48,890 nt of DNA from an uncultured Alphaproteobacteria bacterium (GTDB taxonomy: Bacteria > Pseudomonadota > Alphaproteobacteria > Rhodobacterales > Rhodobacteraceae). A model generated the notes under the pieces. The model made no database searches and was not told where the DNA came from. It saw only the letters and a program-made list of their open reading frames with translations. Below, piece by piece: positions 90 through 24,514 of this stretch (position 1 is the stretch's first letter; each line of letters opens with the position of its first letter). The position numbers and the translations under genes were made by a program. The stretch lies in NCBI GenBank assembly GCA_902524655.1, contig CABZEG010000012.1, positions 1-48,890 of the forward strand, read 5' to 3'.

Positions 90-1128
90 AACTAAGCTTA
101 AAATAGAAAATCTCTATAAAATCTTTGGTCCTAGAGCTAAGTCTTTTATAGATCCTGTAAAAAATGGAATGTCAAAACAGGAGCTATTAGATAATCATAG
201 TCATGTCCTTGGGCTAAACAATATTAATTTAGATATTCCTGAACAAAGAATACAAGTGATAATGGGACTATCAGGCTCTGGAAAGTCAACTCTGATAAGA
301 CATATCAATCGTTTGATTGAACCTACAGCAGGCGCAATTACCGTGGATGATGAGGATATTCTTTCGATGTCACAACTCCAGTTGCGTGAATTCAGGCGAA
401 AGAAAACGTCTATGGTTTTTCAAAAGTTTGCTCTATTACCGCATAAAACAGTAGCGCAAAACGTTGCGTATGGCCTGACCATTCAAGGAGAGCAAGAGAG
501 TATAGCGAAGGAGAAAAGCCATAAGTGGATTGAGAGTGTGGGGTTATCAGGTTTTGAGGAAAGATATCCTGCTCAACTCTCCGGTGGTATGCAACAGAGA
601 GTTGGTTTGGCTAGAGCATTGGCAACAGATGCTCCTATATTATTGATGGATGAAGCATTTTCAGCCTTAGACCCTTTAATAAGAACTGACATGCAGAATA
701 TTCTTTTAGAACTTCAAAAAGATTTACATAAGACAATTATCTTTATTACGCACGATTTAGATGAAGCACTCAGAATTGGAGATAACATTGCAATATTGAG
801 GGATGGAAAGATTATTCAAAAAGGTGATCCTCAACAAATAATTATGAAGCCAGCTGATGACTATATCTCTGATTTCATTAAAGATATTAACCGTGGGAAA
901 GTAATTGAAGTTAAATCGATTATGCAAAAAGGTAGTAGTAGTAAAGGCGCTTCTTTAGACAGCTCTTGTTCTCTCGAAGACGCTTTAAAGGTATTAAATA
1001 ATGAAAAGGACAATGAGTGTAGCGTTGTCGATGATAAAGGTAAAAAAATAGGCAAAGTTACGTTAGACGCAGCGATAGGTGCACTTTTCAGAGAGAAAGC
1101 TTCTAGAAATAAAGAGAAGTATAAATAG
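82..1128 (+). CDS. proV: Glycine betaine/proline-type ABC importer ATPase (ProV/OpuAA)
   Basis: This 348-residue protein is the ATP-hydrolysing subunit of a quaternary-amine importer at the inner membrane. Walker A (GLSGSGKST) lies at residues 62-70, followed by the signature LSGGMQQR, Walker B ILLMDEAFSALD and a switch histidine in ITHDLDEA. The N-terminal segment before Walker A (GPRAKSFIDPVKNGMSK) is typical of ProV. The last 70 or so residues look like one degenerate CBS domain, the osmosensing part of the family. The ATG at 82 was chosen because AAAAGAG precedes it and it overlaps the permease stop; an earlier TTG at 22 would run deep into the permease gene. Substrate is inferred: the convergent neighbour operon degrades carnitine-like compounds, so betaine, carnitine or another betaine is plausible. 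Confidence 0.9.
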   Translation: MSKTKLKIENLYKIFGPRAKSFIDPVKNGMSKQELLDNHSHVLGLNNINLDIPEQRIQVIMGLSGSGKSTLIRHINRLIEPTAGAITVDDEDILSMSQLQLREFRRKKTSMVFQKFALLPHKTVAQNVAYGLTIQGEQESIAKEKSHKWIESVGLSGFEERYPAQLSGGMQQRVGLARALATDAPILLMDEAFSALDPLIRTDMQNILLELQKDLHKTIIFITHDLDEALRIGDNIAILRDGKIIQKGDPQQIIMKPADDYISDFIKDINRGKVIEVKSIMQKGSSSKGASLDSSCSLEDALKVLNNEKDNECSVVDDKGKKIGKVTLDAAIGALFREKASRNKEKYK

Positions 1129-1132
1129 TGTC

Positions 1133-3208
1133 TTATATTTTTTGGCTTAAAACACAATCGGCTGCTATCATGCTATCTTCATATATAAAAAATGGATTTA
1201 TCTCTATAGATGCACACCCATTTTCTTCTTGGCTATGAAAATCTACTATTCTAAATATTTCATTTATAATCATATTTAATTTTACTTTACTATTATAACG
1301 AAAGCCATTGATTAAATTGAAAAAATTCATTTTTTTTATTTCTTGTGAAATATATTTTTTTGATACAGGTAATATAAAAGTTTTTGTATCCCTGTATAAT
1401 TCAGTTAATGCTCCTCCCATACCAACAACTAATACATCACCAAATATTTTGTCACTTCGAATGCTTAAAAACATTTCTGCAATTGGAGCTGGAAGCATTT
1501 CTTCAATAAAAAAAGTACCATTATTAATCGCCTTTGAGCCCAATGATTTTTTAATTTCATGATATTTTGAGATGAGCTCCGTTCGACTATTAATATTTAA
1601 TTTAACAGCTCCTAACTCGGTCTTATGTAAAATTTTTGAGCTAGTAAACTTTAAAGCGATTGGAAATTTAATTTTTATTTTTTCTAAATCTTTTATATTT
1701 TTGACAAGCTGAGCATTAGGAACCTTTATTCCTTGTGCCCTAATACTTATTTTTCCTTGGTACTCGTTTGTGTTTACAAATTTATTGTTTTTGCGTTGGG
1801 CTAGCTTAAATTTCTGCAAGCCTTTTTTATCACTCAAATTATTGTAATTTAGAAGGTGTCTTATTGCGTTTAAACAGTTATATATGCCCTGCATTGGGAC
1901 ACCACCAAACCTCAAAATCTTATTGCCCACAATTTCATTTATATTTTCAGGCAGAGTTGAACAGATAATGGGAGTAAGACCAACGAGTTTACTCTCATCT
2001 ATAAAAGCCTTTGTATCGTTTAAATAAAGTTGTTCAGTATCGTTTATTTGCGTATGAGGAAAATCCTGTACCAAAATTGCTGTGGAATAGTCGTTTTTCA
2101 ATGCATTTTTAAATACTGGACCTGTCTTTTCTGGAATACCCCATATGGGAGTTGTGTAATCCAAAGGGTTTGATATCGTTGCTATTTTTGGTAACACTTT
2201 GTCCAGTGATTTTTTCTGACTTTTACTAAAGTTTGGTAACTTTAATTCTAATTCTTCCGCGTTATCTGCAACCATTGCAGCTCCACCACCAGAACAGGTA
2301 AGTGCTAAAATTTTATTTGTTTTTATTGGGCATGAAACACTAAATAATTTAGCTGTTTCAAGTAATTGTATTGGATCATGCACTTCAGTAATACTCAATT
2401 GCTTAAAAAGTGCTGAATACATTTCATTATTTCCGGAAAGAGATCCGGTATGGCTTTTAGCAATCCTTTTACCAATTTGTGATTTACCAGATTTGTAAAC
2501 AATAATAGGTTTTCCTGCATTAAATGAAAATTTTGAGGCCTCCACAAATCTAGTTAAATCAGAAATTCCTTCGATGTGTATAGCAATGCAGGACACATTT
2601 GTCTTTTTGCTGAAATAGTAAATTAAGTCTTCAATTTTTGTTACTGCTTGGTTCCCCGCGGATATCATAAAGCTAATTGGAAGTGATCTAGTTGCCATAA
2701 TAATATCTGATGATAGCATTCCACTTTGAGTAATAAGCGCAATGCCCTTTTTGCAACGTTTGCCTTTGTGTGAAAACGGCCAAAGTGCAAGGTTGTCAGA
2801 AAAATTAATAAATCCATAACAATTAGGCCCAATTAATGGAGTGTCACCGCATTCCTTAATAAGTCTATCCTCAAGGTATTTTCCGGTCTTACCGATTTCT
2901 TTAAACCCTGCCGAATAGCATACTATTCCCTTGCACTTAATGGCTTTAAGAGCTATCACAGTCGAAATAACCTCTTTAGCAGGCACAGCGATGAACGCAG
3001 CATCCGGACTCAACGGAAGGTCAGAAACACTTCGTAAACATTTATAATTATCGATTTTCTTTCTAGTTGGGTTAACAACAAATATTTTCCCCTTATAACC
3101 TCTTCTTTTTAACTCCCTTATGGGAACAAATATGTCTTTGCCACCGATAAAAACGACTGATTTTGCTTTAAAAAAACGATCAATGCTTTTGAAAGAGTCT
3201 AAAATCAT
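1133..3208 (-). CDS. ADP-forming acyl-CoA synthetase (CoA-binding plus ATP-grasp)
   Basis: The 691-residue protein has the full fused architecture of NDP-forming acyl-CoA ligases. An N-terminal CoA-binding Rossmann domain (VVFIGGKD, then PLIGPNCYGFIN) comes first, then succinyl-CoA-ligase-like domains with the phosphohistidine motif SHTGSLSG near residue 255. A C-terminal ATP-grasp domain follows (PIALKFTSSKILHKTELGAV, then FIEEML). The reaction is carboxylate + CoA + ATP to acyl-CoA + ADP + Pi. It is the last gene of the minus-strand operon and its ATG overlaps the acyl-CoA dehydrogenase stop by 4 bases. In this setting it could activate gamma-butyrobetaine, carnitine or crotonobetaine, or recover ATP from an acyl-CoA such as betainyl-CoA. 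That substrate assignment is inference. Confidence 0.85.
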   Translation of the reverse strand: MILDSFKSIDRFFKAKSVVFIGGKDIFVPIRELKRRGYKGKIFVVNPTRKKIDNYKCLRSVSDLPLSPDAAFIAVPAKEVISTVIALKAIKCKGIVCYSAGFKEIGKTGKYLEDRLIKECGDTPLIGPNCYGFINFSDNLALWPFSHKGKRCKKGIALITQSGMLSSDIIMATRSLPISFMISAGNQAVTKIEDLIYYFSKKTNVSCIAIHIEGISDLTRFVEASKFSFNAGKPIIVYKSGKSQIGKRIAKSHTGSLSGNNEMYSALFKQLSITEVHDPIQLLETAKLFSVSCPIKTNKILALTCSGGGAAMVADNAEELELKLPNFSKSQKKSLDKVLPKIATISNPLDYTTPIWGIPEKTGPVFKNALKNDYSTAILVQDFPHTQINDTEQLYLNDTKAFIDESKLVGLTPIICSTLPENINEIVGNKILRFGGVPMQGIYNCLNAIRHLLNYNNLSDKKGLQKFKLAQRKNNKFVNTNEYQGKISIRAQGIKVPNAQLVKNIKDLEKIKIKFPIALKFTSSKILHKTELGAVKLNINSRTELISKYHEIKKSLGSKAINNGTFFIEEMLPAPIAEMFLSIRSDKIFGDVLVVGMGGALTELYRDTKTFILPVSKKYISQEIKKMNFFNLINGFRYNSKVKLNMIINEIFRIVDFHSQEENGCASIEINPFFIYEDSMIAADCVLSQKI

Positions 3209-4362
3209 GCCCCAAGAGGTCTAAGCAATGAGCGCGTTACAATATGCCTTTGTATTTCAGATGTTCCATCCCAAATTCTTTCCAAACGTGAGTCTCTCCA
3301 AAGCCTTTCAATAGGCATCTCTTCCATTAAACCCATTCCTCCGAAAATCTGAACAGTATCATCTGCCACCTTATTAAGCATTTCTGAACAAAAAATCTTA
3401 ACAATAGCCGCATCCTCATCCATCATTTGACCAACCAAAGCTCGGTCTACAGCATCTTTTACTAAAAGGTCTGCAGCTCTTAAGTTCATCTTCATATCTG
3501 CTAGCTTGAAACCTGTAGCTTGGAAGGTTCCTATTGGCTTTCCAAATTGTTTTCTTTGGGCAGACCAATCTAAAGCTAAATCAAGAATTCGTTCTGCCTT
3601 ACCACAACAAGTCGCTCCTACCCAAATACGACCCATGCCAAGCCATTTCCCAGATAATGAAAGTCCATTACCCTCAGTACCTAGTACCTTATCAGCAGAA
3701 AGCCTAACGTCATTAAAGCTTAACTGGTAATTTTTATATCCCCGGTAGCTGATACACTTTGTACCCTCTTGAATATCAAATCCGGGAATACCAACATCCA
3801 CTAGGAAGGCTGTAATTCGTTTTCTTTTTCCGCGAGGCGTTTCATCTTCTCCCGTAGCAGCAAATACAATCGCAAAATCTGGCATACATGGTCCAGAAAT
3901 AAAATGTTTAGAACCATTCAAAATCCAGTCAGCTCCTTCTTTCTTAGCATTCGACTTCATACTCATTATATCAGAGCCCGCGTCAGGTTCTGTTAATGCA
4001 AATAATTCTCGTTTATCTCCATTTACGCAGGGATAAAGATATTCTTCCATTTGCTTTTCATTACATGCTAGAAGTATTTCGGTAGGACGTGCTATCCATG
4101 AATGTAAAGCATGTGAAGTTTTCCCGTACTCCCTTTCAATAATCATCATTGAAGAATAATCCAATCCTCCACCACCGTATTTTTCTGGCAAATTAGCCGC
4201 AAATAATCCAACTTCTTTTGATTTTTCTTCTATTTGTTTGCCTATTTCATCTGGAACATAACCAAGTTTATCCACACGGTCTTCATGAGGATAAATTTCA
4301 TCAGCCATGAATTTTTGGACAGTATCTAATAGAATTTTTGTGTCGCTTGAAGTGTCATACAT
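3205..4362 (-). CDS. Acyl-CoA dehydrogenase
   Basis: The protein is 385 residues from the ATG at 4362, normal for the flavin acyl-CoA dehydrogenase family. Visible family motifs are LFALTEPDAGSD (FAD/substrate loop), the QRKQFGKPIGTFQ helix, QIFGGMGLMEE and the C-terminal IWDGTSEIQRHI signature. It would make a 2,3-enoyl-CoA and pass electrons to ETF. A TTG at 4374 is a possible earlier start, but the ATG has a GAG seven bases ahead. Next to a CaiD-like hydratase and a CoA ligase, gamma-butyrobetainyl-CoA is an attractive substrate. The sequence is not obviously closer to CaiA than to other acyl-CoA dehydrogenases, so I leave the substrate open. Confidence 0.88.
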   Translation of the reverse strand: MYDTSSDTKILLDTVQKFMADEIYPHEDRVDKLGYVPDEIGKQIEEKSKEVGLFAANLPEKYGGGGLDYSSMMIIEREYGKTSHALHSWIARPTEILLACNEKQMEEYLYPCVNGDKRELFALTEPDAGSDIMSMKSNAKKEGADWILNGSKHFISGPCMPDFAIVFAATGEDETPRGKRKRITAFLVDVGIPGFDIQEGTKCISYRGYKNYQLSFNDVRLSADKVLGTEGNGLSLSGKWLGMGRIWVGATCCGKAERILDLALDWSAQRKQFGKPIGTFQATGFKLADMKMNLRAADLLVKDAVDRALVGQMMDEDAAIVKIFCSEMLNKVADDTVQIFGGMGLMEEMPIERLWRDSRLERIWDGTSEIQRHIVTRSLLRPLGA

Positions 4363-4377
4363 AGTTAATCTCAATAA

Positions 4378-5265
4378 TTAGTTTTTTATTAATGAAAGCT
4401 TTTTCCTTGTTTCATCTGGGGTAAGAACTCTTCCACCCATTAGCGTGATTATTTTTATAACTTTTTCAACCAATTGTCCATTCGTAGCAAGCACGCCTTT
4501 TGAAAGATAAAGATTATCTTCTAAGCCAACACGAACATTGCCCCCCATAGTAACGGCTGCAGCAGCCATAGGTATTTGCATTCTTGAAATGCCAAACCCA
4601 GACCAATTTGCGTTTGATGGGAGATGGTCCTTCATTGCTTTCATAGTATCAACACTTTGATCAGCGCCCCACGGTATTCCTAAACATATTTGAAACATTG
4701 GAGGTTCGTTAATTAATCCTTCTTCAATTAGCTGTTTGGCTAATCTAATATGACCTAAGTCAAAAACCTCTAATTCTGGTTTTACTCCCCAAGATTTTGT
4801 CAATTCGGCCATTCTTCTCAGGATAGGTAGAGTGGATATATAAATAGAATGATCGTTTACACCAAAATTCAGGGTTCCACAATCTAAGGAACAAATTTCT
4901 GGCTTACAAATCTCTATATGCGCGAGCCTTTCATCAGGACCTATCATGTCCGTTCCGGGGCCAGGCAACGAAAAATCATTTTCATCAGGAACCCAATCGC
5001 CGCCCATTCCTGCAGTAAGGTTTATCACTACATCAGTTTTATCATCTCTTATTCTGTCAACTGCTTCTTTAAATAAGTTCACATCTCGGGATCCTTTACC
5101 AGTTTCTGGATCTCGCACATGAACATGGGCTGCAGACGCACCTGCTTTCGCAGCTTCGATAGCAGCATCTGCAACCTCTTTAGGAGTTACTGGAACATGA
5201 GGACTTTTATCAACAGTCTCACCGGCTCCTGTAACCGCACATGTCACTATTACCTCAAAATTCAT
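4378..5265 (-). CDS. BKACE-family (DUF849) beta-keto acid cleavage enzyme, probably dehydrocarnitine:acetyl-CoA type
   Basis: The 295-residue protein is a TIM-barrel beta-keto acid cleavage enzyme. The zinc-binding pair is visible at His47 and His49 ([17 protein letters not shown]), with Glu16 in GAGET and the NLTAGMGG loop near residue 85. Family members condense a beta-keto acid with acetyl-CoA to give acetoacetate plus a new acyl-CoA. The gene starts 10 bases after the carnitine dehydrogenase stop with a good GAGG ribosome site. In that pairing the expected reaction is 3-dehydrocarnitine + acetyl-CoA to betainyl-CoA + acetoacetate. Family assignment is firm; the specific substrate follows from the neighbour. 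Confidence 0.87.
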
Positions 5266-5275
5266 GCTAACCTCA

Positions 5276-6223
5276 CTATTTATTTGGATGATTGTTTTTT
5301 ATGGCACTCAAAATCGCGGCAATTGCGTTATCACGATCTTTAGCCATTTCAAGAAAATGCTTACCTTTTGACATGTCTTTACACCCATTAACCATCTTAT
5401 CACGTAATTCTTGTGTTAATTCAGGTGCTTTAAGTCTAGTCCATGGTAATTGTAATGCAGGGCCGAATTGGTCTAGATTTGTAGCCATACCTCCTTCACC
5501 ACAGGCTACGTGAAATGCCATGCATTGACCTTGGTAAGCCATCCTAGGTGCTGGCCCATTAATTAGTGCTAAATCAATTTGTTCGGGTGTTGCTTCATCA
5601 TTTGCGACCATGTGTAATGCCTCTCGCCACAATGCTTCCTGTAATCGAGTTGCAATAAATCCTGGAATTTCTTTTTTAAGCAAAATTGGGACTTTACCGA
5701 CCGCTTTATAAAAGCTGACCGCCTGATCAACACATAGTTTATTTGTGTATTCACTAGCAACGACCTCAACCAGTGGAAGTAAGTATGGAGGGTTAAAAGG
5801 ATGTCCTACTATTGCTCTATCTTTTGTATTACAGTTCTTTACGATGTCTGAAATTAATAGCCCAGAAGTTGATGAAGCTATAATAACGTTTGGGTTTAAA
5901 AATAAATCAATTTGGGAATAAAAATCTTGCTTTACAGTTAGTATCTCTGGAATGCTTTCCTGTACGAAGTCGACCTCGCTTAAGCTCTCTTTTAAGTTGG
6001 TTAAGATTTGCATTCTTTCTAACGATGCTGTTTTATCAATCCCTAATTTTTCCAATGTTTCCCAAGCCGTTTTGATTAATGACTTATAATTATCTATTTC
6101 ATTCACTGAGTGGAGATAACACTTTACATTTAGGCCTTTAGCTAGAAAGTGAGCGGCCCAACCAGCTCCTATGGGTCCGCCTCCAATACTAGCCACTGTT
6201 GAGATCTTATTTAAACCTTCCAA
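5276..6223 (-). CDS. lcdH: L-carnitine 3-dehydrogenase
   Basis: This NAD-dependent dehydrogenase belongs to the 3-hydroxyacyl-CoA dehydrogenase superfamily. It has [11 protein letters not shown] near the N-terminus, VQESIPE, SSTSGLL, the catalytic-region [15 protein letters not shown], and [19 protein letters not shown]. The last motifs and the [17 protein letters not shown] stretch are characteristic of carnitine dehydrogenases. It oxidises L-carnitine to 3-dehydrocarnitine. I use the TTG at 6223 (315 residues): AAAGGA precedes it and it begins just after the hydratase stop, whereas an ATG at 6286 would overlap the hydratase by about 60 bases. The adjacent BKACE enzyme would take the product. 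Confidence 0.87.
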
Positions 6224-6224
6224 G

Positions 6225-7028
6225 CTATTTTCCTTTAAAATTTGGATCTCTTTTTTCAACAAACGCCGCCACACCTTCAGCTGCATCGTCCGATTTAAGC
6301 ATATTCGAATATGTTGACAAATTGCCTGACCGCATTTCTGAAAAAGCCTCTCTTAAAGCTTTACATTCTATCGCTCTTAAAACTTCCTTTACGCTTTGCA
6401 TCGCCAGAGGAGCTGTCAGCGCCATTTTTTCTGCCCACTCTCTTGCAGAATCTAAAAGTGAAGATTTATCAACCACTTTATTTACCAATCCAAAGCTTTT
6501 TGCTTCCTGAGCTGACATTCTACGACCAAGAAAAAACATTTCCATTGCAATATTGTATGGAATTCTTCTAGGTAACCTTTGAAGTGCACCAGCGTCAGGA
6601 ACAATACCTAGTGGCATCTCAGGCAGTCCAAATTCAACATGCTCTGCTGCTATAATCAAATCACAGGACATTGCAAGCTCAAAACCTCCACCAATTGCGT
6701 GACCATTTAGAGCGCAAATCACTGGTTTGTTCAAATTCCAATTTTCTGTTAATCCGGCAAAACCACCGTCACCGTAGTCTGCCTTTTCCCACCAATTATC
6801 TAGCGCCATTTCTCCAGAATTAACGGCTTTAAGGTCCCATCCAGCTGAAAATATCTTATCTCCTTCACCAGTAATTATTCCAACTCTAAGTTCGGAATTA
6901 TCTCGTAATTCCGCAAAAGCTTTTCCAAGATCTTGACTAAGTTTAAGGTCTATAGCATTTACTTTTGGCTTGTTGATTTTGATTTCTAGTACTTTTTCTT
7001 TTACTTCTACCTCTAGATGACTTGTCAT
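6225..7028 (-). CDS. caiD: Carnitinyl-CoA dehydratase / crotonobetainyl-CoA hydratase (CaiD-like)
   Basis: The 267-residue protein is a crotonase-fold enzyme with the oxyanion-hole segments SAGWDLKA (from residue 61) and GGGFELA. Two acidic catalytic residues fall at Glu117 and Glu137, the same 20-residue spacing as in CaiD. SAGWDLKA, GGFAGLTE, GIVPDAG and the ending EKRDPNFKGK match my memory of E. coli CaiD better than generic enoyl-CoA hydratases. The reaction would be crotonobetainyl-CoA + water to carnitinyl-CoA. It sits between the monooxygenase and carnitine dehydrogenase genes in one operon. A thioesterase to free carnitine is not seen in the window. Confidence 0.82.
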   Translation of the reverse strand: MTSHLEVEVKEKVLEIKINKPKVNAIDLKLSQDLGKAFAELRDNSELRVGIITGEGDKIFSAGWDLKAVNSGEMALDNWWEKADYGDGGFAGLTENWNLNKPVICALNGHAIGGGFELAMSCDLIIAAEHVEFGLPEMPLGIVPDAGALQRLPRRIPYNIAMEMFFLGRRMSAQEAKSFGLVNKVVDKSSLLDSAREWAEKMALTAPLAMQSVKEVLRAIECKALREAFSEMRSGNLSTYSNMLKSDDAAEGVAAFVEKRDPNFKGK

Positions 7029-7037
7029 TTTATGTTC

Positions 7038-8075
7038 CTAATGAAAAGCAGGAAGAACTTCTTCACAGAACAACTCGAGTGATTTCTTCTGTGAACCATG
7101 ATCTAACCCCATTGATGCGTAATAGATAAAATTATCCACGCCGAGATATTCATAACGCTTTAATTTTTTAATAACCTCGTCTGGTGTTCCAAACAGTAAA
7201 TTTTCTTCGAGCATAGTAGGATTATATTCCTCTCTATTTTCAAGTTCTTTCAAAGCAATTTCCTTGGGAAATCCATCTTTAACGTCACCTAAATTTTTAA
7301 ACAAATTTTCAAATTGGCCTAATATACGTTGAATAGCTCTTATATAGATACTCGCTTCTTCTTTGTTTTTATAGACAGCAGCATGCCTCATCATCGCAAA
7401 AATGGGTTTAAAGCCATTAGAAGCACTTTCCAAAGCATCATCAAGGCGTTGTTTGTAGAGCTCTGCCTCTGAAAATGGTCTAGTTAAAGGCCAAGACATT
7501 ATATTGCAATGATTTTTTACTGCATAGTCATAGGTTATAGGTGCTCTAGCAGCTACCCATACAGGGGGCCCACCTTTTTGCAAGGGTTTTGGAACAGAGG
7601 TAGATAATGGGAAAGACCAAAATTCACCATTATGCTCGTAATCTCCTTCCCATAGCTTCTTGATAACTGGAAGACTCTCCTGCATATATTTCCATGCATC
7701 AGATTGTTTGAGTCCTGGGTGCATTCGATCAAATTCTCGTTGATATGCCCCCGAACCTATACCAAATTCAAGACGACCCTCAGTAATTAGGTCTGTGAAA
7801 GCAGCCTCTCCAGCCAGTTTGATTGGATGCCAATAGGGGGCTGCTGCCACAGCAGTGCCGAGCCTTACATAGTTTGTATTTTCTGCCCACCATGTAATTA
7901 TTTGAAAAGGGTTTGGTGCAATTGTCATTTCCAAGGCGTGGTGTTCAGCAGCCCATACAATATTAAAACCACTTTGATCAGCCATTTGAACCATCTCTAG
8001 TGTATGGTTTTTCACGTCCTTCATTGACAAAGAGTTGTCTGCTCTTTCTAGATTTATTGCTAAATCAAATTTCAT
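7038..8075 (-). CDS. Luciferase-like flavin monooxygenase, TgnB-like
   Basis: The 345-residue protein is a bacterial-luciferase-family (LLM) flavin-dependent oxygenase. It shows WAAEHHALEMTIAPNP, RLGTAVAAAPYWHPIKLA, a GRLEFGIGSGAYQREFDRM substrate/FMN region, FPLSTSVPKPLQKGGPPVWV and a C-terminal FGTPDEVIKKL. These resemble TgnB, the oxygenase component of trigonelline monooxygenase, which cleaves an N-methylpyridinium ring with reduced flavin from a separate reductase. No flavin reductase gene is visible in the window, so one would have to act in trans. It lies between an aldehyde dehydrogenase and the CaiD-like gene. Substrate is unknown; an N-methylated heterocycle or another amine is inferred. 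Confidence 0.8.
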   Translation of the reverse strand: MKFDLAINLERADNSLSMKDVKNHTLEMVQMADQSGFNIVWAAEHHALEMTIAPNPFQIITWWAENTNYVRLGTAVAAAPYWHPIKLAGEAAFTDLITEGRLEFGIGSGAYQREFDRMHPGLKQSDAWKYMQESLPVIKKLWEGDYEHNGEFWSFPLSTSVPKPLQKGGPPVWVAARAPITYDYAVKNHCNIMSWPLTRPFSEAELYKQRLDDALESASNGFKPIFAMMRHAAVYKNKEEASIYIRAIQRILGQFENLFKNLGDVKDGFPKEIALKELENREEYNPTMLEENLLFGTPDEVIKKLKRYEYLGVDNFIYYASMGLDHGSQKKSLELFCEEVLPAFH

Positions 8076-8107
8076 TTACTTAATCCCCCTAAAAAATCTT
8101 TTATACT

Positions 8108-9589
8108 TTATTTCATTACAAATGGATTAGCTGCCGGTTCATCTGACATATTCATCCAAACCGTTTTAGGTCGAGTGTAGTCATATATCGCTTGAAAACC
8201 ACTTTCTCGACCATAACCTGAGTTTTTAAATCCTCCAAATTCTGCAATCGGAGACACAACCCTATATGTGTTAACCCATACTATTCCAGCATGAACTGCC
8301 TTACTTACTCTTAGACACTTAGAATTACTTTTTGAAAAAATGCCAGCTGCCAAACCATGTTTTGTATCATTAGCAAGAGATATGACCTCTTGCTCAGTTT
8401 TAAATTTTATTACGGATAGCACAGGTCCAAATAATTCAGTATCTACTATCTTTAGTTTCTGACTAGGGCAGTCTACTATTGTTGGCTCAAAAAACAATTC
8501 ACCAAGACCTTCGGGTGATTTACCACCACACAACAAAGTTGCACCTTCTTCTACAGCAAACGCAAGCTCAGTTTTTATATTCTCGAGTTGCCCTTTAGTG
8601 CATAGAGGGCCCATTTGGGTTTCGTCTAATAAAGGGTCCCCAATTTTTATGTTTTTTGCCTGCTTAACAATTAATCTTAAAAATTCATCTGCTATATTTT
8701 CTTGAAGGTATAATCTCGACCCAGCAACACAGCTTTGACCTGTTGCGCCAAAAATTCCAGCTATAGAGCAATTTACTGCGTTCTCGATATCAGCATCATC
8801 AAATACAATAAAAGGTGACTTGCCCCCCAGCTCTAAAGACACTTCTGCAAAATTTTCGGCAGAATTTCTTATGACATGGCGCGCAGAAGTCGGTCCTCCA
8901 GTGAACGAAATTCTGGCGACCTTGGGATGGCTTGTTAATTCTTTTCCACAAGGGTCTCCATGGCCTGTAATAATATTCACGACTCCCGGAGGTATGCCCG
9001 CCTCCTCAACGCATTTACCAAAAGCAAGCATAGCTGCAGATGCGTGTTCGGACGCTTTCAAAACGATAGTATTTCCCGCAGCCAATGCTGGACCAATCTT
9101 TACGGCAACAAGAAACAATTGTGAATTCCAAGGAACAATTGCTGCCACAACGCCCAATGGCTCTCTGTTTGTAAATACAAATAAATCTGTTTTATCAATC
9201 GGTAATGTTTGACCAGAGACTTTATCAGCGCACCCAGCAAAGAAGTTAAAAAATTGCGAAATATATTTTGCCTGCCATTTAGTTTCCTTTAACATTTTCC
9301 CGGTGTCTATGGTTTCAATTTTACCCAATTCCTCAGATTTGCTAGCTAGTATTTCGGCTAATTTTCTGAGATGCTCTCCTCTTTCTGTCGGAGTCATTTT
9401 TGACCATGGTCCATCAATAAATGCTTTGTGAGCCGCGTCTACTGCGCTATTAACATCCTTTGTCGATGCTTCTGGTATAGTGCACCAACTCTCTCCCGTT
9501 GTGGGGTTTGAGCTTTCAAAGGTCTTATTATCAGAGGATAAGACCCACTCTCCATCAATCAACATTTTATAGTTTTCTATTATGCCCAT
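8108..9589 (-). CDS. NAD(P)-dependent aldehyde dehydrogenase, first gene of the minus-strand operon
   Basis: The 493-residue protein is a full-length ALDH-superfamily enzyme. General-base Glu253 is in VSLELGGKS and nucleophile Cys287 in GATGQSCVAGSR; the cofactor loops VPWNSQ and FTGGPTSARHVI are present. It heads the operon and is followed after 32 bases by the luciferase-like monooxygenase. In trigonelline degradation the ring-cleavage product is oxidised by an aldehyde dehydrogenase (TgnC), and this pair has the same logic. An alternative is trimethylaminobutyraldehyde dehydrogenase, which would feed gamma-butyrobetaine into the carnitine genes downstream. The sequence alone does not decide between them. 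Confidence 0.85.
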   Translation of the reverse strand: MGIIENYKMLIDGEWVLSSDNKTFESSNPTTGESWCTIPEASTKDVNSAVDAAHKAFIDGPWSKMTPTERGEHLRKLAEILASKSEELGKIETIDTGKMLKETKWQAKYISQFFNFFAGCADKVSGQTLPIDKTDLFVFTNREPLGVVAAIVPWNSQLFLVAVKIGPALAAGNTIVLKASEHASAAMLAFGKCVEEAGIPPGVVNIITGHGDPCGKELTSHPKVARISFTGGPTSARHVIRNSAENFAEVSLELGGKSPFIVFDDADIENAVNCSIAGIFGATGQSCVAGSRLYLQENIADEFLRLIVKQAKNIKIGDPLLDETQMGPLCTKGQLENIKTELAFAVEEGATLLCGGKSPEGLGELFFEPTIVDCPSQKLKIVDTELFGPVLSVIKFKTEQEVISLANDTKHGLAAGIFSKSNSKCLRVSKAVHAGIVWVNTYRVVSPIAEFGGFKNSGYGRESGFQAIYDYTRPKTVWMNMSDEPAANPFVMK

Positions 9590-9649
9590 TTTTGCTCACA
9601 CTTTCTGTTTTTTCGCCGTTAAGTTTACAAGAGAAAAATGACGAAAAAC

Positions 9650-9685
9650 AATAACTATTTATTGTATGATAAATAAAAAGTTATT
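9650..9685. promoter_or_regulatory. Inverted repeat in the divergent control region
   Basis: The 148-base gap between the two divergent catabolic operons is very AT-rich. It contains an interrupted inverted repeat. AATAACT at 9650-9656 pairs with AGTTATT at 9679-9685, and inside them ATTTAT at 9657-9662 pairs with ATAAAT at 9669-9674 around TGTATG. The outer arms are offset by four bases on the right side. Its position suggests an operator shared by both operons. AT-rich DNA yields such repeats by chance, so this is a candidate only, and no regulator gene is present nearby. Confidence 0.35.
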
Positions 9686-9737
9686 TTTACAACCGTTATT
9701 TTAACGAATAATCTAACTATCAATATAGGTGAATAAA

Positions 9738-10124
9738 ATGTCTAAAAAAATTATTGGCGATCCATTGATTATAAATGGACGAAAGCTGTCATTATCTAAG
9801 GCTGTTAGAGCTGGCGACTTTGTATATTTAACGGGTCAAGTTCCTATGAAAAACGGTGTGGTCATAACTGAAGGTTCCATAGAAGAGCAAACAAGAATAG
9901 TGCTCGATGAAATTAAAAATACATTGATAGAGGCTGGATGTGAGTTGCAGGATATAATTAAAGCTATGGTTTGGCTGAAAAATAGAGAAGATTTCCCAGG
10001 GTTTAATTCGATTTACGGTGAGTATTTTGACCATGAGCCACCAGCTAGATCTGCCGTGGTCAGCGATCTTTTGGTGGATGTTTTAGTTGAAGTAGAAGTA
10101 GTAGCTTATAAACCTGAGTTGTGA
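9738..10124 (+). CDS. RidA/YjgF-family enamine/imine deaminase
   Basis: The 128-residue protein has the RidA fold signatures: GDFVYLTGQVP near the N-terminus, the conserved arginine in PPARSAVV and the glutamate in VEVEVVAY. RidA proteins hydrolyse reactive enamines and imines to carbonyls plus ammonium or an amine. AGGTG lies seven bases before the ATG at 9738, which I prefer to the GTG at 9729. It is the first gene of the plus-strand operon and is separated by one base from the hydrolase gene. As with RutC beside RutA/RutD in pyrimidine breakdown, it probably speeds hydrolysis of an unstable enamine formed after ring cleavage (inference). Confidence 0.85.
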   Translation: MSKKIIGDPLIINGRKLSLSKAVRAGDFVYLTGQVPMKNGVVITEGSIEEQTRIVLDEIKNTLIEAGCELQDIIKAMVWLKNREDFPGFNSIYGEYFDHEPPARSAVVSDLLVDVLVEVEVVAYKPEL

Positions 10125-10125
10125 A

Positions 10126-10920
10126 ATGAAGAGGCAATATTTTAACGGAAACTGCTTTAAATATTTTTTTAAGAATCCTAAGTTTAAAACTATTGTTTTT
10201 ATACATGGTTTAGGACTCAACCAAGATGTCTGGTCATGGCAAGTTTCTATGTTTAAAAACCATAATGTACTTATATATGATCTTCTTGGTCATGGTGACA
10301 GTAAAGATCCTGAAGGTGATATTTCTTTAAACTTGTTTGCAGATCAACTGCTGCAAATAATCAATCACATTAAATTAGAAAAATTTATACTAATTGGGTT
10401 TTCTCTGGGATCAATGATTTCTCGAAAATTTGCGTCTTTACAGCCAAGCATAGTTGAAGCTCTAGTTCTTTTAAATTCACCCAATAGGCTGTTGGATCAG
10501 GAAAGGGATGAAATTTTAGAAAGAGCAAAGTTGTTGGAAGACGAGGGTCCAGAGCCTACAACTGATGCGGCGATAAAAAGATGGTTTAGTATTCCTTTTC
10601 AGAAAAGTAATCCTCATATCGTTCAGCTTGTACGCAACTGGGTAAATAACAATAGAAAAGAAATTTATTCAAAAGTTTACCCCATACTCTATTACGGATC
10701 TATTGACCTTAAATCGCTACATGAAAGCAAGCCGACACTTATAATAACCTGTGATCAAGATTTTGCAAATGGTCCTGATGCTGCAAGAGAAATTGCAAAA
10801 AATTTTAAAAATAGCCATCTCTGTATTTTACAAAACTTGAGGCATATGGCATTGGTCGAAGACTTTAAAAAGGTTTTTATAAAAATTGATGAATTTCTTG
10901 TATCATTGAATTTACATTAA
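10126..10920 (+). CDS. Alpha/beta hydrolase, possibly TgnD/RutD-like
   Basis: The 264-residue protein has a complete alpha/beta-hydrolase triad. The oxyanion region is HGLGLNQDVW, the nucleophile serine is in GFSLGSMIS, the acid is in ITCDQDFANGPD and the histidine in NLRHMALVED. It follows RidA by one base. Enzymes of this fold beside luciferase-like monooxygenases hydrolyse ring-opened amides, as TgnD does for an N-methylformamido-methylene succinate and RutD for aminoacrylate/carbamate intermediates. By position it is likely to do a comparable cleavage here. The substrate cannot be read from the sequence. Confidence 0.85.
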   Translation: MKRQYFNGNCFKYFFKNPKFKTIVFIHGLGLNQDVWSWQVSMFKNHNVLIYDLLGHGDSKDPEGDISLNLFADQLLQIINHIKLEKFILIGFSLGSMISRKFASLQPSIVEALVLLNSPNRLLDQERDEILERAKLLEDEGPEPTTDAAIKRWFSIPFQKSNPHIVQLVRNWVNNNRKEIYSKVYPILYYGSIDLKSLHESKPTLIITCDQDFANGPDAAREIAKNFKNSHLCILQNLRHMALVEDFKKVFIKIDEFLVSLNLH

Positions 10921-10929
10921 CATTTTTTT

Positions 10930-10950
10930 GATACTTAATTATAAAGTATC
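10930..10950. promoter_or_regulatory. Small hairpin between hydrolase and AA_synth genes
   Basis: A perfect 7-base inverted repeat (GATACTT and AAGTATC) surrounds a 7-base loop in the 80-base gap after the hydrolase. It has no downstream run of T residues long enough for an intrinsic terminator. It could be an attenuating or RNA-processing hairpin, or an operator for the second half of the operon. The AA_synth gene beyond it has its own strong ribosome site, so an internal promoter is possible. Confidence 0.3.
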
Positions 10951-11000
10951 TTTAATGATCGTTACGTGCTTTATTTATTTGCAAAAGAATAGGAGCTCAT

Positions 11001-11603
11001 ATGCTTAAAGAACTGAGAAAGATTGTAACCTTTGATGAAGATATATACAGTGAAGGAGGAAAAGAAGCTAATCCTATTCTTCGCATAATAGGTGTTGCTG
11101 CAGTATTATCTAATCCTTGGAAAGGTCAGGGGTTTGTAGAGGACTTGCAACCAGAAATTAAAAGAATTGCTCCTGTAATGGGTAAAGCTTTGACCGACCG
11201 TTTGATTTCAATGGTTGGTAGTGGAGAAAATATTGAAGCATACGGGAAGGCAGCATTAGCTGGGACCAGTTGTGAAATAGAGCATGCTTCAGCTATTATT
11301 CATACTTTGCAATTTGGAAACTTTTACAGGGAAGCGGTTGGTGCAAAAAGTTACCTAGGTTTTACAAACACAAGGGGTCCAGCAAATACACAAATTCAAA
11401 TACCATTAATGGATAAGCATGACACTGGAAGGCGATCACATTATTTGACCGTGCAGTTCTCTATATATGATGCGCCTGGTGTCGACGAAGTAGTGTGTGC
11501 TCTCGGAGCTGCTACAAGCGGTAGGCCCCATCATAGAATAGGTGACCGATACTCAGATCTAAAAGCCCTCGGCAAGTCTGTTGATAATCCAGCTGGTATA
11601 TAA
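11001..11603 (+). CDS. AA_synth-family (DUF1185) protein
   Basis: The 200-residue protein matches my memory of the bacterial 'amino acid synthesis' family (PF06684, formerly DUF1185). The features are an opening with RKIVTFDEDIYSEGG, then IGVAAVLSNPWKGQGFVEDL, a central SGENIEAYGKAALAG and a histidine-rich GRPHHRIGDR near the end. No biochemical function is firmly established for the family to my knowledge; structural work suggested a small-molecule enzyme. The start has AGGAG five bases ahead of the ATG. It lies inside a run of catabolic genes (RidA, hydrolase, aldehyde dehydrogenase), which points to handling of a breakdown intermediate rather than biosynthesis. That is inference. Confidence 0.75.
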   Translation: MLKELRKIVTFDEDIYSEGGKEANPILRIIGVAAVLSNPWKGQGFVEDLQPEIKRIAPVMGKALTDRLISMVGSGENIEAYGKAALAGTSCEIEHASAIIHTLQFGNFYREAVGAKSYLGFTNTRGPANTQIQIPLMDKHDTGRRSHYLTVQFSIYDAPGVDEVVCALGAATSGRPHHRIGDRYSDLKALGKSVDNPAGI

Positions 11604-11620
11604 AAGAAAAGGTGAAATCA

Positions 11621-13036
11621 ATGAAACTAGATAAATTCTACGTTAATGGCGAATGGGTCTCCCCTGTAAAAGATGAAAAAATTGATATTATTAATCCATC
11701 AGATGAATCAGTTATTGGGACACTAAACGTTGGCTCTCAGCAGGATATTGATAAGGCAGTAGAGGCAGCAAAAGCTGCGTTTTCAAGCTATGCGCGGACA
11801 AGTGTAGCTGAGCGTTTAGACCTGTTGAAAGAAATAAGAAACCAGTTTAAAAATCGCTTTGATGATTTTGTGGAAGCTATCACTAAAGAAATGGGGTCGC
11901 CTGTAAAGCTTTCTCGCGGTGCACAAGCAGCTGTAGGGTTAGGTCATTTAAAGACTGCAATAAGGGTGCTAGAGGAACATAAATTTGAATATCCTTTTAA
12001 TGGCTACACAGTAAGGCACGAACCAATTGGAGTTTGTGGGCTTATCACACCTTGGAATTGGCCAATTAACCAAACTATCTCGAAGCTCGGACCGTGTCTT
12101 GCCTCAGGGTGCACAGCGATCTTGAAACCAAGTGAAATATCCCCATTATCAGCTAATATAATCGCTGAGATAATGGATGCCGCAAAAGTTCCTAAAGGAG
12201 TTTTTAATATGGTGCATGGCTTGGGTCCAGTTGTAGGGGAGGCCTTATCTAACCATAAGGATGTTGATATGATGTCTTTTACTGGTTCAACGAGGGGAGG
12301 GGTCGCTGTTGCTCAGGCTGCGGCAAAATCGGTCAAGAGAGTTAGTCAGGAACTTGGAGGAAAATCACCAAATATAATTTTTGATGATGAAAAGTTTGAG
12401 CAATCGGTCACTGTTGGCGTGCAAAAAATTATGGAGAATACAGGACAGTCTTGTAATGCCCCAACTCGCATGATTGTTCCAAAAAATCGACAACATGAAG
12501 CTTTGGAAATTGCAAAAAATGTTGCAGAAAAATTGATAACCGGTGACCCAACAAAAGAGGAAACAGACATTGGCCCTCTAGTCAGTCAAGCTCAATTCGA
12601 TAAAGTGCAAAGGTTAATTGAATCAGGGATTAAGGCTGGTGCTCAATTAGTAACTGGTGGATTAGGAAAGCCTATGGGGCTTAATGCTGGTTATTTTGTT
12701 AAGCCGACTGTTTTTGGAGATGTAAAAAACTCCATGGAAATTGCCCAAGAAGAAATATTTGGACCTGTCTTATCTGTAATACCGTATGAAGACATTGATA
12801 ATGCGGTTCAGATTGCGAATGACACAAGCTATGGCCTTTCTGCTTATGTCTGTGGTAGTGATTCAGAAAAATTAAGGAGCGTCGCGAGGCAAATAAGAGC
12901 AGGTCAAATCCATGTTAATTATGGTAGCGGGGGAACCAATGCACCATTTGGCGGTTTTAAGCAATCGGGTAATGGGCGTGAAAAGGCTGAATGGGGTTTG
13001 GAAGAATTCTTAGAGACTAAAGCAATAATGGAGTAA
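11621..13036 (+). CDS. Aldehyde dehydrogenase, second copy (semialdehyde dehydrogenase-like)
   Basis: The 471-residue protein is a complete ALDH enzyme: ITPWNWP cofactor segment, FTGSTRGG loop, Glu245 in SQELGGKSP and nucleophile Cys278 in NTGQSCNAP. It is clearly different from the enzyme at 8108. The ATG at 11621 has AAGGTG at the right distance and is preferred to the in-frame GTG at 11612. It lies 17 bases after the AA_synth stop, in the same operon. If the locus works like trigonelline breakdown, this would be the final step, oxidising a succinate-semialdehyde-like product for the TCA cycle (TgnE position). The exact aldehyde is unknown. Confidence 0.85.
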   Translation: MKLDKFYVNGEWVSPVKDEKIDIINPSDESVIGTLNVGSQQDIDKAVEAAKAAFSSYARTSVAERLDLLKEIRNQFKNRFDDFVEAITKEMGSPVKLSRGAQAAVGLGHLKTAIRVLEEHKFEYPFNGYTVRHEPIGVCGLITPWNWPINQTISKLGPCLASGCTAILKPSEISPLSANIIAEIMDAAKVPKGVFNMVHGLGPVVGEALSNHKDVDMMSFTGSTRGGVAVAQAAAKSVKRVSQELGGKSPNIIFDDEKFEQSVTVGVQKIMENTGQSCNAPTRMIVPKNRQHEALEIAKNVAEKLITGDPTKEETDIGPLVSQAQFDKVQRLIESGIKAGAQLVTGGLGKPMGLNAGYFVKPTVFGDVKNSMEIAQEEIFGPVLSVIPYEDIDNAVQIANDTSYGLSAYVCGSDSEKLRSVARQIRAGQIHVNYGSGGTNAPFGGFKQSGNGREKAEWGLEEFLETKAIME

Positions 13037-13060: not shown

Positions 13061-14065
13061 TTGTCTATTGAATCAGGAACAAGCAATAATTTTACGGTAG
13101 ATTGTTTGCAGTATGCTAATTGGTCTAAGGAAATTTTTGAGCAGATGAGACAAGGTGGAGTTGACTGTGTTCATGTAACTATTGCCTACCATGAAAACTT
13201 TCGGGAAGCTATTTTAAACCTTGAGAAATGGAACGAATATTTCAATAGTTATTCGGAGTATATCGTGCAAGCAGGTAGCTATAATGAAATATTATCTGCT
13301 AAGAAAAATAATAAAACAGCTATTATTTTCGGTTTTCAAAATCCGGCTCCAATAGAAGACGATATTTCTTTGTTAGAAGTTTGGCAAAAGCTTGGTATTC
13401 GATTTATGCAACTATCTTATAACAATCAATCGCTCCTTGCTACAGGTTGTTATGAAAAGAATGACCCTGGTTTAACACGAATGGGGAAAGAAGTTATTAA
13501 GGAAATGAATAGGCTTGGGATTGTTGTTGACATGAGCCATTCTTCTGATCGATCAACCTTAGAGGCAATTGATAATTCATCACGGCCTATTGCAATTACC
13601 CATGCCAACCCTGCGTTTTGGCATTCTGCTTTGAGAAATAAGTCAGATGAAGTTCTAGACCGAATGTTTAAAAACGGTGGTATGTTGGGATTTTCTCTTT
13701 ATTCACATCATTTACATAATGGGAGTAATTGTACTATCAAAGACTTTTGTAAAATGATTGCAAAAACGGCAGAAAAATTTGGATCAAAAAATATTGGGAT
13801 AGGAAGTGATCTTTGTCAGAATCAGCCCGATAGTATAGTAGAGTGGATGAGAAATGGAAGATGGACCAAAACAAAAGACTTTGGAGAAGGAGATTCTTCT
13901 AACCCTGGCTTTCCTATTCAGCCTAATTGGTTCAAGTCAAACAAGGATTTTGTCAATATTAAGAATGGATTAAAGAATATTGGATTTGATAATAATGAAA
14001 TTAATTCTATTATGGGACTTAATTGGATGAAGTTTTTCGAAAGTTCTTTTAGCAAAGAGATCTAA
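13061..14065 (+). CDS. Peptidase M19 (membrane dipeptidase)-like protein with altered metal site
   Basis: The 334-residue protein is an M19/renal-dipeptidase-type amidohydrolase barrel. It has IIFGFQNPAPIEDD, FMQLSYNNQS, VVDMSHSS, ITHANP and IGIGSDLCQ, which carry most metal and substrate residues of the family. The N-terminal His-x-Asp motif that provides two zinc ligands in canonical members is missing; the corresponding stretch reads VDCLQYANWS. I recall a proteobacterial subgroup with this same change, so it may be a real subfamily with a different activity. The TTG start has GGGGGA seven bases ahead. It would hydrolyse an amide or dipeptide-like bond in the pathway, but the substrate is not known. 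Confidence 0.78.
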   Translation: MSIESGTSNNFTVDCLQYANWSKEIFEQMRQGGVDCVHVTIAYHENFREAILNLEKWNEYFNSYSEYIVQAGSYNEILSAKKNNKTAIIFGFQNPAPIEDDISLLEVWQKLGIRFMQLSYNNQSLLATGCYEKNDPGLTRMGKEVIKEMNRLGIVVDMSHSSDRSTLEAIDNSSRPIAITHANPAFWHSALRNKSDEVLDRMFKNGGMLGFSLYSHHLHNGSNCTIKDFCKMIAKTAEKFGSKNIGIGSDLCQNQPDSIVEWMRNGRWTKTKDFGEGDSSNPGFPIQPNWFKSNKDFVNIKNGLKNIGFDNNEINSIMGLNWMKFFESSFSKEI

Positions 14066-14066
14066 G

Positions 14067-15764
14067 TTGGCAGTAGAAAAAAAAATACAGCTGTGTGGTT
14101 CACAGCCAAATATAAGAAAGCCTTCCGAGGTTATGAAACTTGAAAGAATGGGGTCCTTCCATCCATCGAGGCTATCTTTTGCAAGAATATTGATCCGTAA
14201 AATGATACAGGAAAAAACGCATATTAGTTGTTCGCGTTGGGAAATGGATGAAAAAGGATTTGGTTATGCGGTTTATCAGTTGAACCTTTTTGGAAAAGAC
14301 TTGGCATTAATTGCATTTTCTAATCATCTTGAGAGTTCACAAAGGACTGATAGAGTTATTGCATCAAGTTGGGATACCTCTTTTGCGCTGTTTGATGGCG
14401 TTCCATCGATTCCAGACATTGAAAGACTTAAAACACAGTTACCTTTTCAAGAGGCGGGTAGGTATAGAAATACTGAGCTAGTTCTGAGTAGGGCTAATAA
14501 ATCTGTAAGGATGTTTGAGCTGGTAGCGAAGTCACTAAGTGAAGGTGAGCAACCTCCAATCGAGCTGATAAATGAAATCGGATATTTAATGCGAACTACG
14601 GCAGTGTATGGAAACGGAAAATTCGGCATTGATGATAGAAAAAATCATTGTGAACATTCTGACTTCTCTGTCCCATTTCAGCTTGAAATGCTAACGGTGT
14701 ACTTGATTAGAGGCTTTTCACTAGACCTAGTTAATCATGTTGCGAAAGCCCTTAACCCTAAAAAATTTGTTTCCCTTGATAAAAAAATTCAAAGATATCT
14801 AGGAATTGGTAATGCAACTGGGCTTGGGATGGCTCCATTTTTGGTCAAACACCCTGTCTTATTAAATAATTGGTTTCAAGTTCGTGAAACCGCATTGTCA
14901 AGGATGATTAATTTAGCAGAGCTTTCTAACGAAAAGGCTGAAAGATTAATTGAGTTAACATTTAGAGTTAAAGTCTTCATTAACTCTTGGAAGACAGATG
15001 ATAATAGACTGAAGAAAAGAATTGACACCTTGGAAACTGAGTGGGCATCAATGATAAATGAATTTACTTTAGAAAAATTGTTAAAAATTAATGCTTTAGA
15101 GGATATATTTAATATTTCTAAAAAATATTCGATAGAATGCCAAGAGTTAGTAGTGTCCTTGTTTTTGGAAGTTGGTGGAGATTTAATTGACGGGCTTGAT
15201 CTGTGTTTAGAGAGTACCAAATTGCCTATGCTCTATCCTAATATGAGAGTGCATGAATTAGCTGACTTAATAAAAAAGAACTTCTCTTGGGCTTTGAAAA
15301 TAGATTTTTCTTTGGAAGAAAATCAATCAAGGTTTTGGTATGTCTCAGAAGAAAAATTGGAGCCGAGATTAGGAAATCGCTATGAAGAGGAAGGTCAAGA
15401 TTTAGAAAAGCCTTTAGATATTGCTAGGAGGGTGTGTTCTTTGCATGCTGATCTCGGAAGTATCGACAATGATATGATAGTAGCGGAATTTTTAATGAAA
15501 CACCCTGAACATCGATTTATTATTCGCAGGATACAAACGAATGCTTGGGCTCCATACTCCGAAATACACGATAATTTAATTGATGAACATTGCAAACCTA
15601 TAGATATGCTACGTTGTAAACTATCCTTTTTTGGCGCATCTAAATTTGATCCGAAATCAGACAGGTGGGTTAGAGTTAACTTGTTTCAAGGAGCACCCCT
15701 AAAAAACGAACTCAATGACCAAAAAAATGACGATTGGTGGATGCCTACACTCGAATATTCCTAA
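14067..15764 (+). CDS. Conserved-looking protein of unknown function, 565 residues
   Basis: I do not recognise this protein. It is soluble, with no signal peptide or membrane segment. The N-terminal third has many charged and aromatic residues (RMGSFHPSRLSFARIL, ISCSRWEMDEKGFGYAVYQL, LALIAFSNHL), including WDTSFALFDG. The middle third is helical (FLVKHPVLLNNWFQVRETALSRMI). A C-terminal part contains FRYVSEEK-like tryptophan/tyrosine-rich and acidic segments, with PRLGNRYEEEG and HRFIIRRIQTNAWAPYSEIHD. It starts at a TTG one base after the M19 stop, with AGAG eight bases ahead, and its stop overlaps the ATG of the next gene. Tight coupling implies that it works with the DUF3726-like partner and the upstream enzymes. 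Confidence 0.6.
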   Translation: MAVEKKIQLCGSQPNIRKPSEVMKLERMGSFHPSRLSFARILIRKMIQEKTHISCSRWEMDEKGFGYAVYQLNLFGKDLALIAFSNHLESSQRTDRVIASSWDTSFALFDGVPSIPDIERLKTQLPFQEAGRYRNTELVLSRANKSVRMFELVAKSLSEGEQPPIELINEIGYLMRTTAVYGNGKFGIDDRKNHCEHSDFSVPFQLEMLTVYLIRGFSLDLVNHVAKALNPKKFVSLDKKIQRYLGIGNATGLGMAPFLVKHPVLLNNWFQVRETALSRMINLAELSNEKAERLIELTFRVKVFINSWKTDDNRLKKRIDTLETEWASMINEFTLEKLLKINALEDIFNISKKYSIECQELVVSLFLEVGGDLIDGLDLCLESTKLPMLYPNMRVHELADLIKKNFSWALKIDFSLEENQSRFWYVSEEKLEPRLGNRYEEEGQDLEKPLDIARRVCSLHADLGSIDNDMIVAEFLMKHPEHRFIIRRIQTNAWAPYSEIHDNLIDEHCKPIDMLRCKLSFFGASKFDPKSDRWVRVNLFQGAPLKNELNDQKNDDWWMPTLEYS

Positions 15765-19900: not shown

Positions 19901-19902
19901 AA

Positions 19903-20580: not shown

Positions 20581-20589
20581 GAAAATTAC

Positions 20590-24464: not shown

Positions 24465-24514
24465 ATTTAGAAAGATTAGTTATTGCTGTAAGTTTTAAAC
24501 ATAATCCAATTGAC

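Follow-up and report, generated by a model that had tools for sequence, protein, structure and literature searches.

We examined a 48,890-nucleotide stretch of an uncultured alphaproteobacterium of the family Rhodobacteraceae (assembly GCA_902524655.1, contig CABZEG010000012.1, forward strand), here referred to as the window, and identified two divergent operons around a luciferase-like class flavin monooxygenase (LLM). We give about an even chance to the reading that they form an operon for breaking down a methylated N-heterocyclic betaine such as trigonelline or homarine, joined to a lower half that is based on a β-keto acid cleavage enzyme (BKACE) and copied from carnitine degradation. Candidate substrates would be trigonelline, homarine and other pyridinium betaines. 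The evidence behind this proposal is gene content, conservation, co-occurrence, paralogy and domain fusions, and the individual steps are assigned from knowledge of the enzyme families. Homarine, trigonelline and similar methylated N-heterocycles are marine metabolites for which, to our knowledge, few degradation routes are on record. The window has a G+C content of 36% and makes up the entire contig C12 of a 1.77-Mb genome that is 71% complete. The operons open from a 139-base gap (9590-9728), and the cluster has eleven defined genes:

8108..9589, minus strand: ALDH1, a BADH (betaine aldehyde dehydrogenase)-like aldehyde dehydrogenase at the head of the minus operon (PF00171; best NCBIfam match BADH, 484 bits, cutoff 669)
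7038..8075, minus strand: LLM class flavin monooxygenase, the proposed ring-opening oxygenase (PF00296)
6225..7028, minus strand: ECH, a CaiD-like enoyl-CoA hydratase (best NCBIfam match crotonobetainyl-CoA hydratase, 308 bits, cutoff 500)
5276..6286, minus strand: LcdH-like 3-hydroxy acid dehydrogenase, single domain (best NCBIfam match L-carnitine dehydrogenase, 289 bits, cutoff 414); the true start is probably inside the open reading frame (ORF), at about residue 25
4378..5265, minus strand: BKACE-family protein (PF05853, 325 bits; HxH and ED positions kept)
3205..4374, minus strand: acyl-CoA dehydrogenase (ACAD; PF00441, PF02770, PF02771)
1133..3208, minus strand: ADP-forming type acyl-CoA synthetase (PF13607, PF13549, PF13380)
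9729..10124, plus strand: RidA-family protein, a proposed enamine/imine deaminase (PF01042; PPARS motif kept)
10126..10920, plus strand: PcaD-like alpha/beta hydrolase (ABH; PF00561; nearest NCBIfam models PcaDC/PcaD, 126/121 bits, below cutoff; GFSLGS motif)
11001..11603, plus strand: AA_synth family protein, the core partner of LLM (PF06684)
11612..13036, plus strand: ALDH2, a second aldehyde dehydrogenase of narrow distribution (PF00171)

The minus operon runs in the order listed, with gaps of -62 to +32 bases, and ends at 1133, while the plus operon continues after ALDH2 with an M19-family protein, a 565-aa protein and a DUF3726 protein. An earlier note on this DNA, made from the sequence alone, had placed a trigonelline/homarine-type locus at 7038-13036. 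The six genes it named are intact in the ORF list and by Pfam, in the order and on the strands it gave, and for them the span holds; it is nevertheless too short, as it cuts the minus operon in two and leaves out five genes down to 1133. The divergent RidA-ABH-AA_synth / ALDH-LLM layout was found again in relatives, and the arrangement of the six genes is therefore not due to chance. The kind of pathway named by the note stands, but the roles it gave to AA_synth and ALDH2 do not, and it missed the five carnitine-like genes and the reductase fusions of the relatives.

In the proposed route, the substrate would be imported by a betaine-type ABC transporter, and LLM would oxygenate and open the ring, drawing its reduced flavin from a reductase whose gene is at another place in the genome. 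ALDH1 would oxidize an aldehyde, ABH may hydrolyse a lactone or a formamide, AA_synth would putatively take one core step, and RidA would hydrolyse an enamine or imine with release of methylamine or another amine. The remaining acid would be activated with CoA by the acyl-CoA synthetase and a CaiB-type transferase, desaturated by ACAD, hydrated by the CaiD-like ECH and oxidized by the LcdH-like enzyme to a 3-keto acid, which BKACE would cleave with acetyl-CoA to acetoacetate and a shorter acyl-CoA. An acetoacetate-CoA ligase gene comes after the operon in Aminobacter SR38, which is expected if BKACE makes acetoacetate.

Relatives were surveyed in 198 genomes of the family (the window genome being G000) and in 131 loci, namely the window, 50 fetched relatives and plasmid loci, and 80 of 497 genome contigs. 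Loci were labelled by identity thresholds as A-type (carnitine-like genes) or B-type (a thiamine diphosphate, ThDP, enzyme); the T label (tgn-type) was given by gene order and succinate-semialdehyde dehydrogenase (SSADH), with no TgnB sequence compared. Near-duplicate loci (13 of the window's genus) were kept in the locus counts, where they inflate A, and were dropped only for the BKACE and LcdH trees. Short contigs were also kept, as were L095 and L109, which match G172:C7 and G033:C9 in length and are probably identical to them.

The LcdH and BKACE of the operon are a second, paralogous set beside the canonical carnitine genes. In both G000 and G172 (regions L090 and L082, respectively) a canonical 488-aa carnitine 3-dehydrogenase was identified over the curated cutoff (642 and 647 bits, cutoff 592), adjoining a second BKACE; the window LcdH-like protein is below its own curated cutoff. 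The L090 region also has a sarcosine-oxidase-alpha-like protein. A second BKACE, with 51-54% identity, is present in all 7 A genomes, partial in G033, and LcdH frames of 499-522 aa were found elsewhere in G036, G141 and G043 and one of 332 aa in G090, with no second LcdH frame seen in G033 (74% complete). The A-type LcdH (at least 60% identity) occurs in 7 of the 198 family genomes, always beside LLM, the other matches listed at 1e-60 having at most 43%; none was found away from LLM in these genomes. Moreover, ECH, LcdH and BKACE are together in 27 of the 35 genome-contig loci with full flanks.

Trees separated 38 A-type from 7 canonical BKACE and 42 A-type from 7 canonical LcdH, each with a support of 100, with a long-branch warning for L085 and L086 in the LcdH tree. 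Identity between the two types is 30-40% for LcdH and 47-55% for BKACE, with 33 and 23 positions, respectively, fixed differently. Among these, canonical aromatic residues are swapped in both BKACE (W174R, F208M, W219A/C, Y233M) and LcdH (W225H, F255C, F270N), replacements that would fit a changed substrate. Four conserved aromatics are missing from the A-type BKACE, which has acquired an invariant Arg, so that a dehydrocarnitine analogue may be its substrate. Its H47, H49 and ED pair align with those of 2y7d, and we take the HxH to be metal-binding. The position of Kce Glu14 is Gly in the window protein, and the active site of Kce was therefore not used to infer what BKACE acts on.

No flavin reductase matched among the window proteins scanned, in agreement with the earlier note, and the single PF01613 gene found in the window genome is located on contig C2. 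In relatives, this function was found attached to other enzymes of the proposed pathway. Parasedimentitalea marina encodes one 707-aa protein composed of a CoA-transferase family III and a flavin reductase, the two were in one frame in 13 of the 80 genome-contig loci (by BLAST only), and in L073 (7028-9151) Pfam confirmed that a CaiB-type CoA-transferase (PF02515) and a flavin reductase (PF01613) are fused. The flavin reductase is fused to ABH in L036 and L040, and is free in Aminobacter. The CoA-transferase of the window genome is 46-51% like the fusion, ends in a decayed tail of weak similarity with no Pfam reductase match, and is about 10 kb from the sole flavin reductase gene found, on C2. 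The fusion of either CoA-transferase or ABH to the reductase in relatives thus suggests that a single pathway comprises both the CoA chemistry and the flavin-dependent oxygenation.

The oxygenase is the sole PF00296 protein found in the incomplete window genome. All of its best 25 of 30 NCBIfam matches were below cutoff (SsuD, 31.8 bits, far below the cutoff of 518), and the nitrilotriacetate monooxygenase (NTA) and RutA models were absent among these 25. Strong LLM relatives (at least 37% identity) numbered 55 in 53 of the 198 family genomes, the G014 copy having six internal stops; relatives were also found in genomes, single-cell ones among them, that carry the labels SAR116, Roseovarius, Rhodobacteraceae and Hyphomicrobiales, and 453 records of the plasmid collection, Acinetobacter and Sinorhizobium among them, matched at 1e-20.

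In the LLM tree (120 rows), the tgn-type sequences formed their own clade (T, 21 rows, support 100), as did those of an Agrobacterium/Azospirillum type (C, 5 rows, support 99). The window LLM grouped with the remaining relatives, outside both T and C, with at least 56% identity to those compared. It has 37-41% identity to the tgn-type clade (41% to the Acinetobacter LLM), and T keeps its support of 100 without the window. Thus, the relatedness to tgn-type oxygenases claimed by the earlier note holds, but membership of their clade does not. As far as tested, the oxygenase did not group with an unrelated LLM clade. Escherichia coli RutA joined the tree solely as a very long outgroup branch; because the SsuD and RutA outgroups both have very long branches, the root is unsafe and no sister clade is claimed.

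We call T tgn-type because of its gene order, an SSADH over the model cutoff in the A. baumannii and Rhizobium loci, and the location on pSymA in S. meliloti, where the title of a reference places trigonelline genes; a figure legend gives TgnB as the trigonelline monooxygenase Q6F9F6. The gene order AA_synth-ABH-flavin reductase-LLM-ALDH is found in Acinetobacter and Rhizobium, and in pieces in S. meliloti. In S. meliloti AK57 pSymA (L077), the tgn-type operon lies amid transposases with several genes matching in more than one piece, and looks partly broken. Another tgn-like cluster (L076, NZ_CP077849.1) is in a 3.66-Mb "plasmid" record with 45 annotated features, which may be a mislabelled chromosome.

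AA_synth, which the earlier note took for an addition to the trigonelline genes, is instead a core member of the wider operon family, the Acinetobacter operon included. We count it as core because it co-occurs with LLM and is part of the tgn-like A. baumannii cluster. Strong AA_synth matches (50 in 49 of the 198 family genomes) were found only in genomes with a strong LLM relative, 48 of them within 10 kb of LLM and the other 2 at contig starts; four genomes had a strong LLM and no strong AA_synth (Fisher p 3e-42, the genomes not being independent). By locus type, AA_synth was detected in 37 of 58 A, 10 of 19 B and 20 of 21 T loci. Residues invariant across 13 A, C and T proteins (no B-type included) comprise E13, E79, K83, H95, H101, R145, H147, D182 and R183, and a search of PDB sequences gave two uncharacterised structures. 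In L035 (15262-16255), a low-identity AA_synth match lies beside frames that, judged by eye, resemble transposases, which hints at an insertion, and a stronger AA_synth is found at the second LLM locus of the same genome.

RidA, on the other hand, is a real addition relative to tgn-type operons, as had been proposed: at 55% identity or above it was present in 35 of 58 A loci, none of the 19 B or 21 T loci, and 3 loci with neither label (L040, L126 and L164). The first aldehyde dehydrogenase also bears out its description as an adjacent TgnC-type enzyme, since ALDH1 has 47-54% identity to the aldehyde dehydrogenase of the 21 T loci, and such a gene is near LLM in A, B, C and T loci. ABH has 22-29% identity to the T-type hydrolase in 18 of 21 loci, with no match in the other 3. 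The suggested TgnE-like role of ALDH2 was not supported, as it scored 330 of the 646 bits required by the SSADH model and is narrowly distributed: relatives were found in L032 and 12 of the 14 loci L095-L108 (79-98%; two are short contigs) and in L157 (57%), and at 45% or above in no other locus. SSADH itself, at 50% or above, was found in 0 of 58 A and 5 of 21 T loci.

The 131 loci comprise 58 A, 19 B, none with both and 54 with neither (including the 21 T loci, the C loci and many short contigs). The carnitine-like genes and the ThDP enzyme exclude each other. In B-type loci (L042, L043, L046, L112, L136, L143 and others), an Xsc/acetolactate-synthase-like ThDP enzyme replaces the BKACE route. 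At least 3 changes between A and B are required on the LLM tree; therefore, close oxygenases are paired with different lower halves. The regulators also differ by type, with GlxA-type in 25 of 58 A, LysR in 10 of 19 B and GntR in 15 of 21 T loci.

We tentatively extend the proposal, at chances a little short of even, to a previously undescribed betaine pathway that is widespread in marine Alphaproteobacteria. In it, TgnB-related ring opening would feed a re-targeted carnitine-like BKACE route, the lower half would be of at least two interchangeable kinds (CoA/BKACE or ThDP enzyme), a flavin reductase would be fused to the CoA-transferase, and BKACE may act on a dehydrocarnitine analogue that bears a methylamino or carboxylate group. 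We found no paper on the combination of LLM and BKACE in the open-licence literature, nor a description of an upper ring-opening module with a carnitine-derived lower half. The BKACE family could gain a new substrate class, and the cluster, with its defined genes, a core partner without an assigned function and a fusion protein, is directly testable.

A betaine substrate is also suggested by neighbouring genes, in line with the earlier note. An ATPase gene lies at the start of the window; in L095, which is nearly identical, its counterpart is followed by genes for an OpuAC-type (glycine betaine, PF04069) binding protein and a permease. OpuAC/ProX transporters also occur close to the loci of the window's genus, to C-type loci and to some others. 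The window Mgs-like genes have 58-79% identity to similar genes beside other LLM loci, a GmaS-like gene (71%) is on C17 of the window genome, and GmaS- or Mgs-like genes were detected in the fetched stretch of 10 of the 131 loci. The name Mgs is our own assignment and the tie to the operon is uncertain. Compared with the N-methylglutamate pathway (GmaS, Mgs, Mgd), as far as an excerpt of PMC13390433 describes it, these genes would be a methylamine sink and not the pathway itself. The three further features of this neighbourhood are:

22..1128, plus strand: ABC transporter ATPase, at the contig start (PF00005; 98% to the L095 gene)
13061..15764, plus strand: M19 dipeptidase-family protein and 565-aa protein without Pfam match, co-directional and of narrow distribution
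19004..21906, plus strand: MgsABC-like genes for N-methylglutamate synthase (methylamine assimilation), 6 kb downstream of ALDH2 (PF13522, PF01493, PF01645)

Several points weigh against the proposal. We know of no substrate on record for any A-type member, and the role of AA_synth in the pathway is unassigned, its predicted structure being poor (mean pLDDT 48 from a five-row alignment). The window has neither a flavin reductase nor a CoA-transferase, both being on C2. Two genomes (G191 and G054, 99% complete) have LLM, ALDH, ABH and AA_synth and no A-type LcdH, so the presence of the upper half does not require the lower one. RidA-family genes of weaker similarity or other types were found near L047 (31%) and L074 (47%) and, going by their annotation, near L075 and L078, the last three being among the C and T loci. 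Most loci show no linkage to GmaS or Mgs; of those that do, several come from one lineage and one is a weak case (L115, 34-40%), and that count took in more sequence for the window than for the others.

Four other explanations were weighed. Two separate neighbouring pathways, namely a trigonelline/homarine-type module and an unrelated gamma-butyrobetaine/carnitine module with a common transporter and promoter, would agree with crotonobetainyl-CoA hydratase and L-carnitine dehydrogenase as the best NCBIfam matches, with an AraC/DJ-1-type regulator in relatives, presumably the type of carnitine regulators, and with the upper module alone in L039 and L040. We consider this unlikely, since G000 and G172 have their canonical carnitine 3-dehydrogenase and second BKACE elsewhere, the operon enzymes are in separate clades with their own fixed residues, the A-type LcdH was not found apart from LLM, and the fusion of CoA-transferase and flavin reductase would be hard to explain. 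The aerobic breakdown of L-carnitine by way of carnitine dehydrogenase and BKACE is described for P. aeruginosa and S. meliloti in an excerpt of PMC12482172. Its enzyme families and their logical order are identical in the window operon; however, the window set belongs to paralogous clades, its LcdH misses the second domain, conserved aromatics are replaced, and the canonical set is found elsewhere in the genome.

Trigonelline degradation in Acinetobacter reportedly proceeds through TgnA-E, as Perchat et al. are said to have described in 2018. An ordinary tgn operon, slightly rearranged, would share four enzyme classes with the window, including the oxygenase, the aldehyde dehydrogenase beside it and the hydrolase, and the identities of LLM and ALDH1 to their tgn-type counterparts and the AA_synth of the tgn-like A. 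baumannii cluster are in line with it. It is still very improbable, as the window LLM is outside the tgn-type clade, ABH has 22-29% identity to the tgn-type hydrolase where one matched (18 of 21), the operon has neither flavin reductase nor SSADH, RidA and a CoA/BKACE lower half of five further conserved genes are present instead, and G043 carries a T-type plus an A-type locus. The published homarine pathway (Ferrer-Gonzalez et al. 2026, Nat Microbiol), in which Mgd participates according to a passage of the citing paper PMC13390433, would agree with the occurrence of LLM relatives in lineages such as SAR116 and Roseovarius, and with the Mgs-like genes found in the window and around other loci. 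We regard it as quite unlikely here, as an N-methylglutamate route would not obviously need BKACE, LcdH, ECH and ACAD, and B-type loci are an equally good candidate. Lastly, a Rut-like uracil/pyrimidine variant (RutA, RutC, RutD) is barely credible. It shares the LLM, RidA and alpha/beta hydrolase roles, with weak RutC and RutD matches, but these are far below cutoff (57.6 of 169.1 and 62.7 of 238.5 bits), RutA is very distant in the LLM tree, no RutB-like gene was seen among the operon proteins scanned, and AA_synth and BKACE would be left unexplained.

A few other observations concern genes around these loci. In L040 (10178-11326), a Rieske oxygenase whose best PDB match is carnitine monooxygenase lies between ALDH1 and LLM; relatives are in L144 (67%) and in nine gammaproteobacterial LLM loci (28-32%). 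Its use as a substitute for the lower half in L040 was ruled out, since L144 contains the Rieske gene together with the lower half, and in G033 and G090 the Rieske gene is found elsewhere. The co-directional block at 13061-16378 of the window (the M19-family, 565-aa and DUF3726 proteins) is also in L032 and in those of L095-L108 whose flank reaches so far. An arginase-family protein (window 17353-18339 and L153:3786-4820; clustered too in L095, L106, L136 and L170) recurs near A- and B-type LLM loci. Further downstream, the window carries a complete ligase-associated DNA repair set (21907-26899), with TIGR04120, TIGR04122 and TIGR04121 over cutoff.

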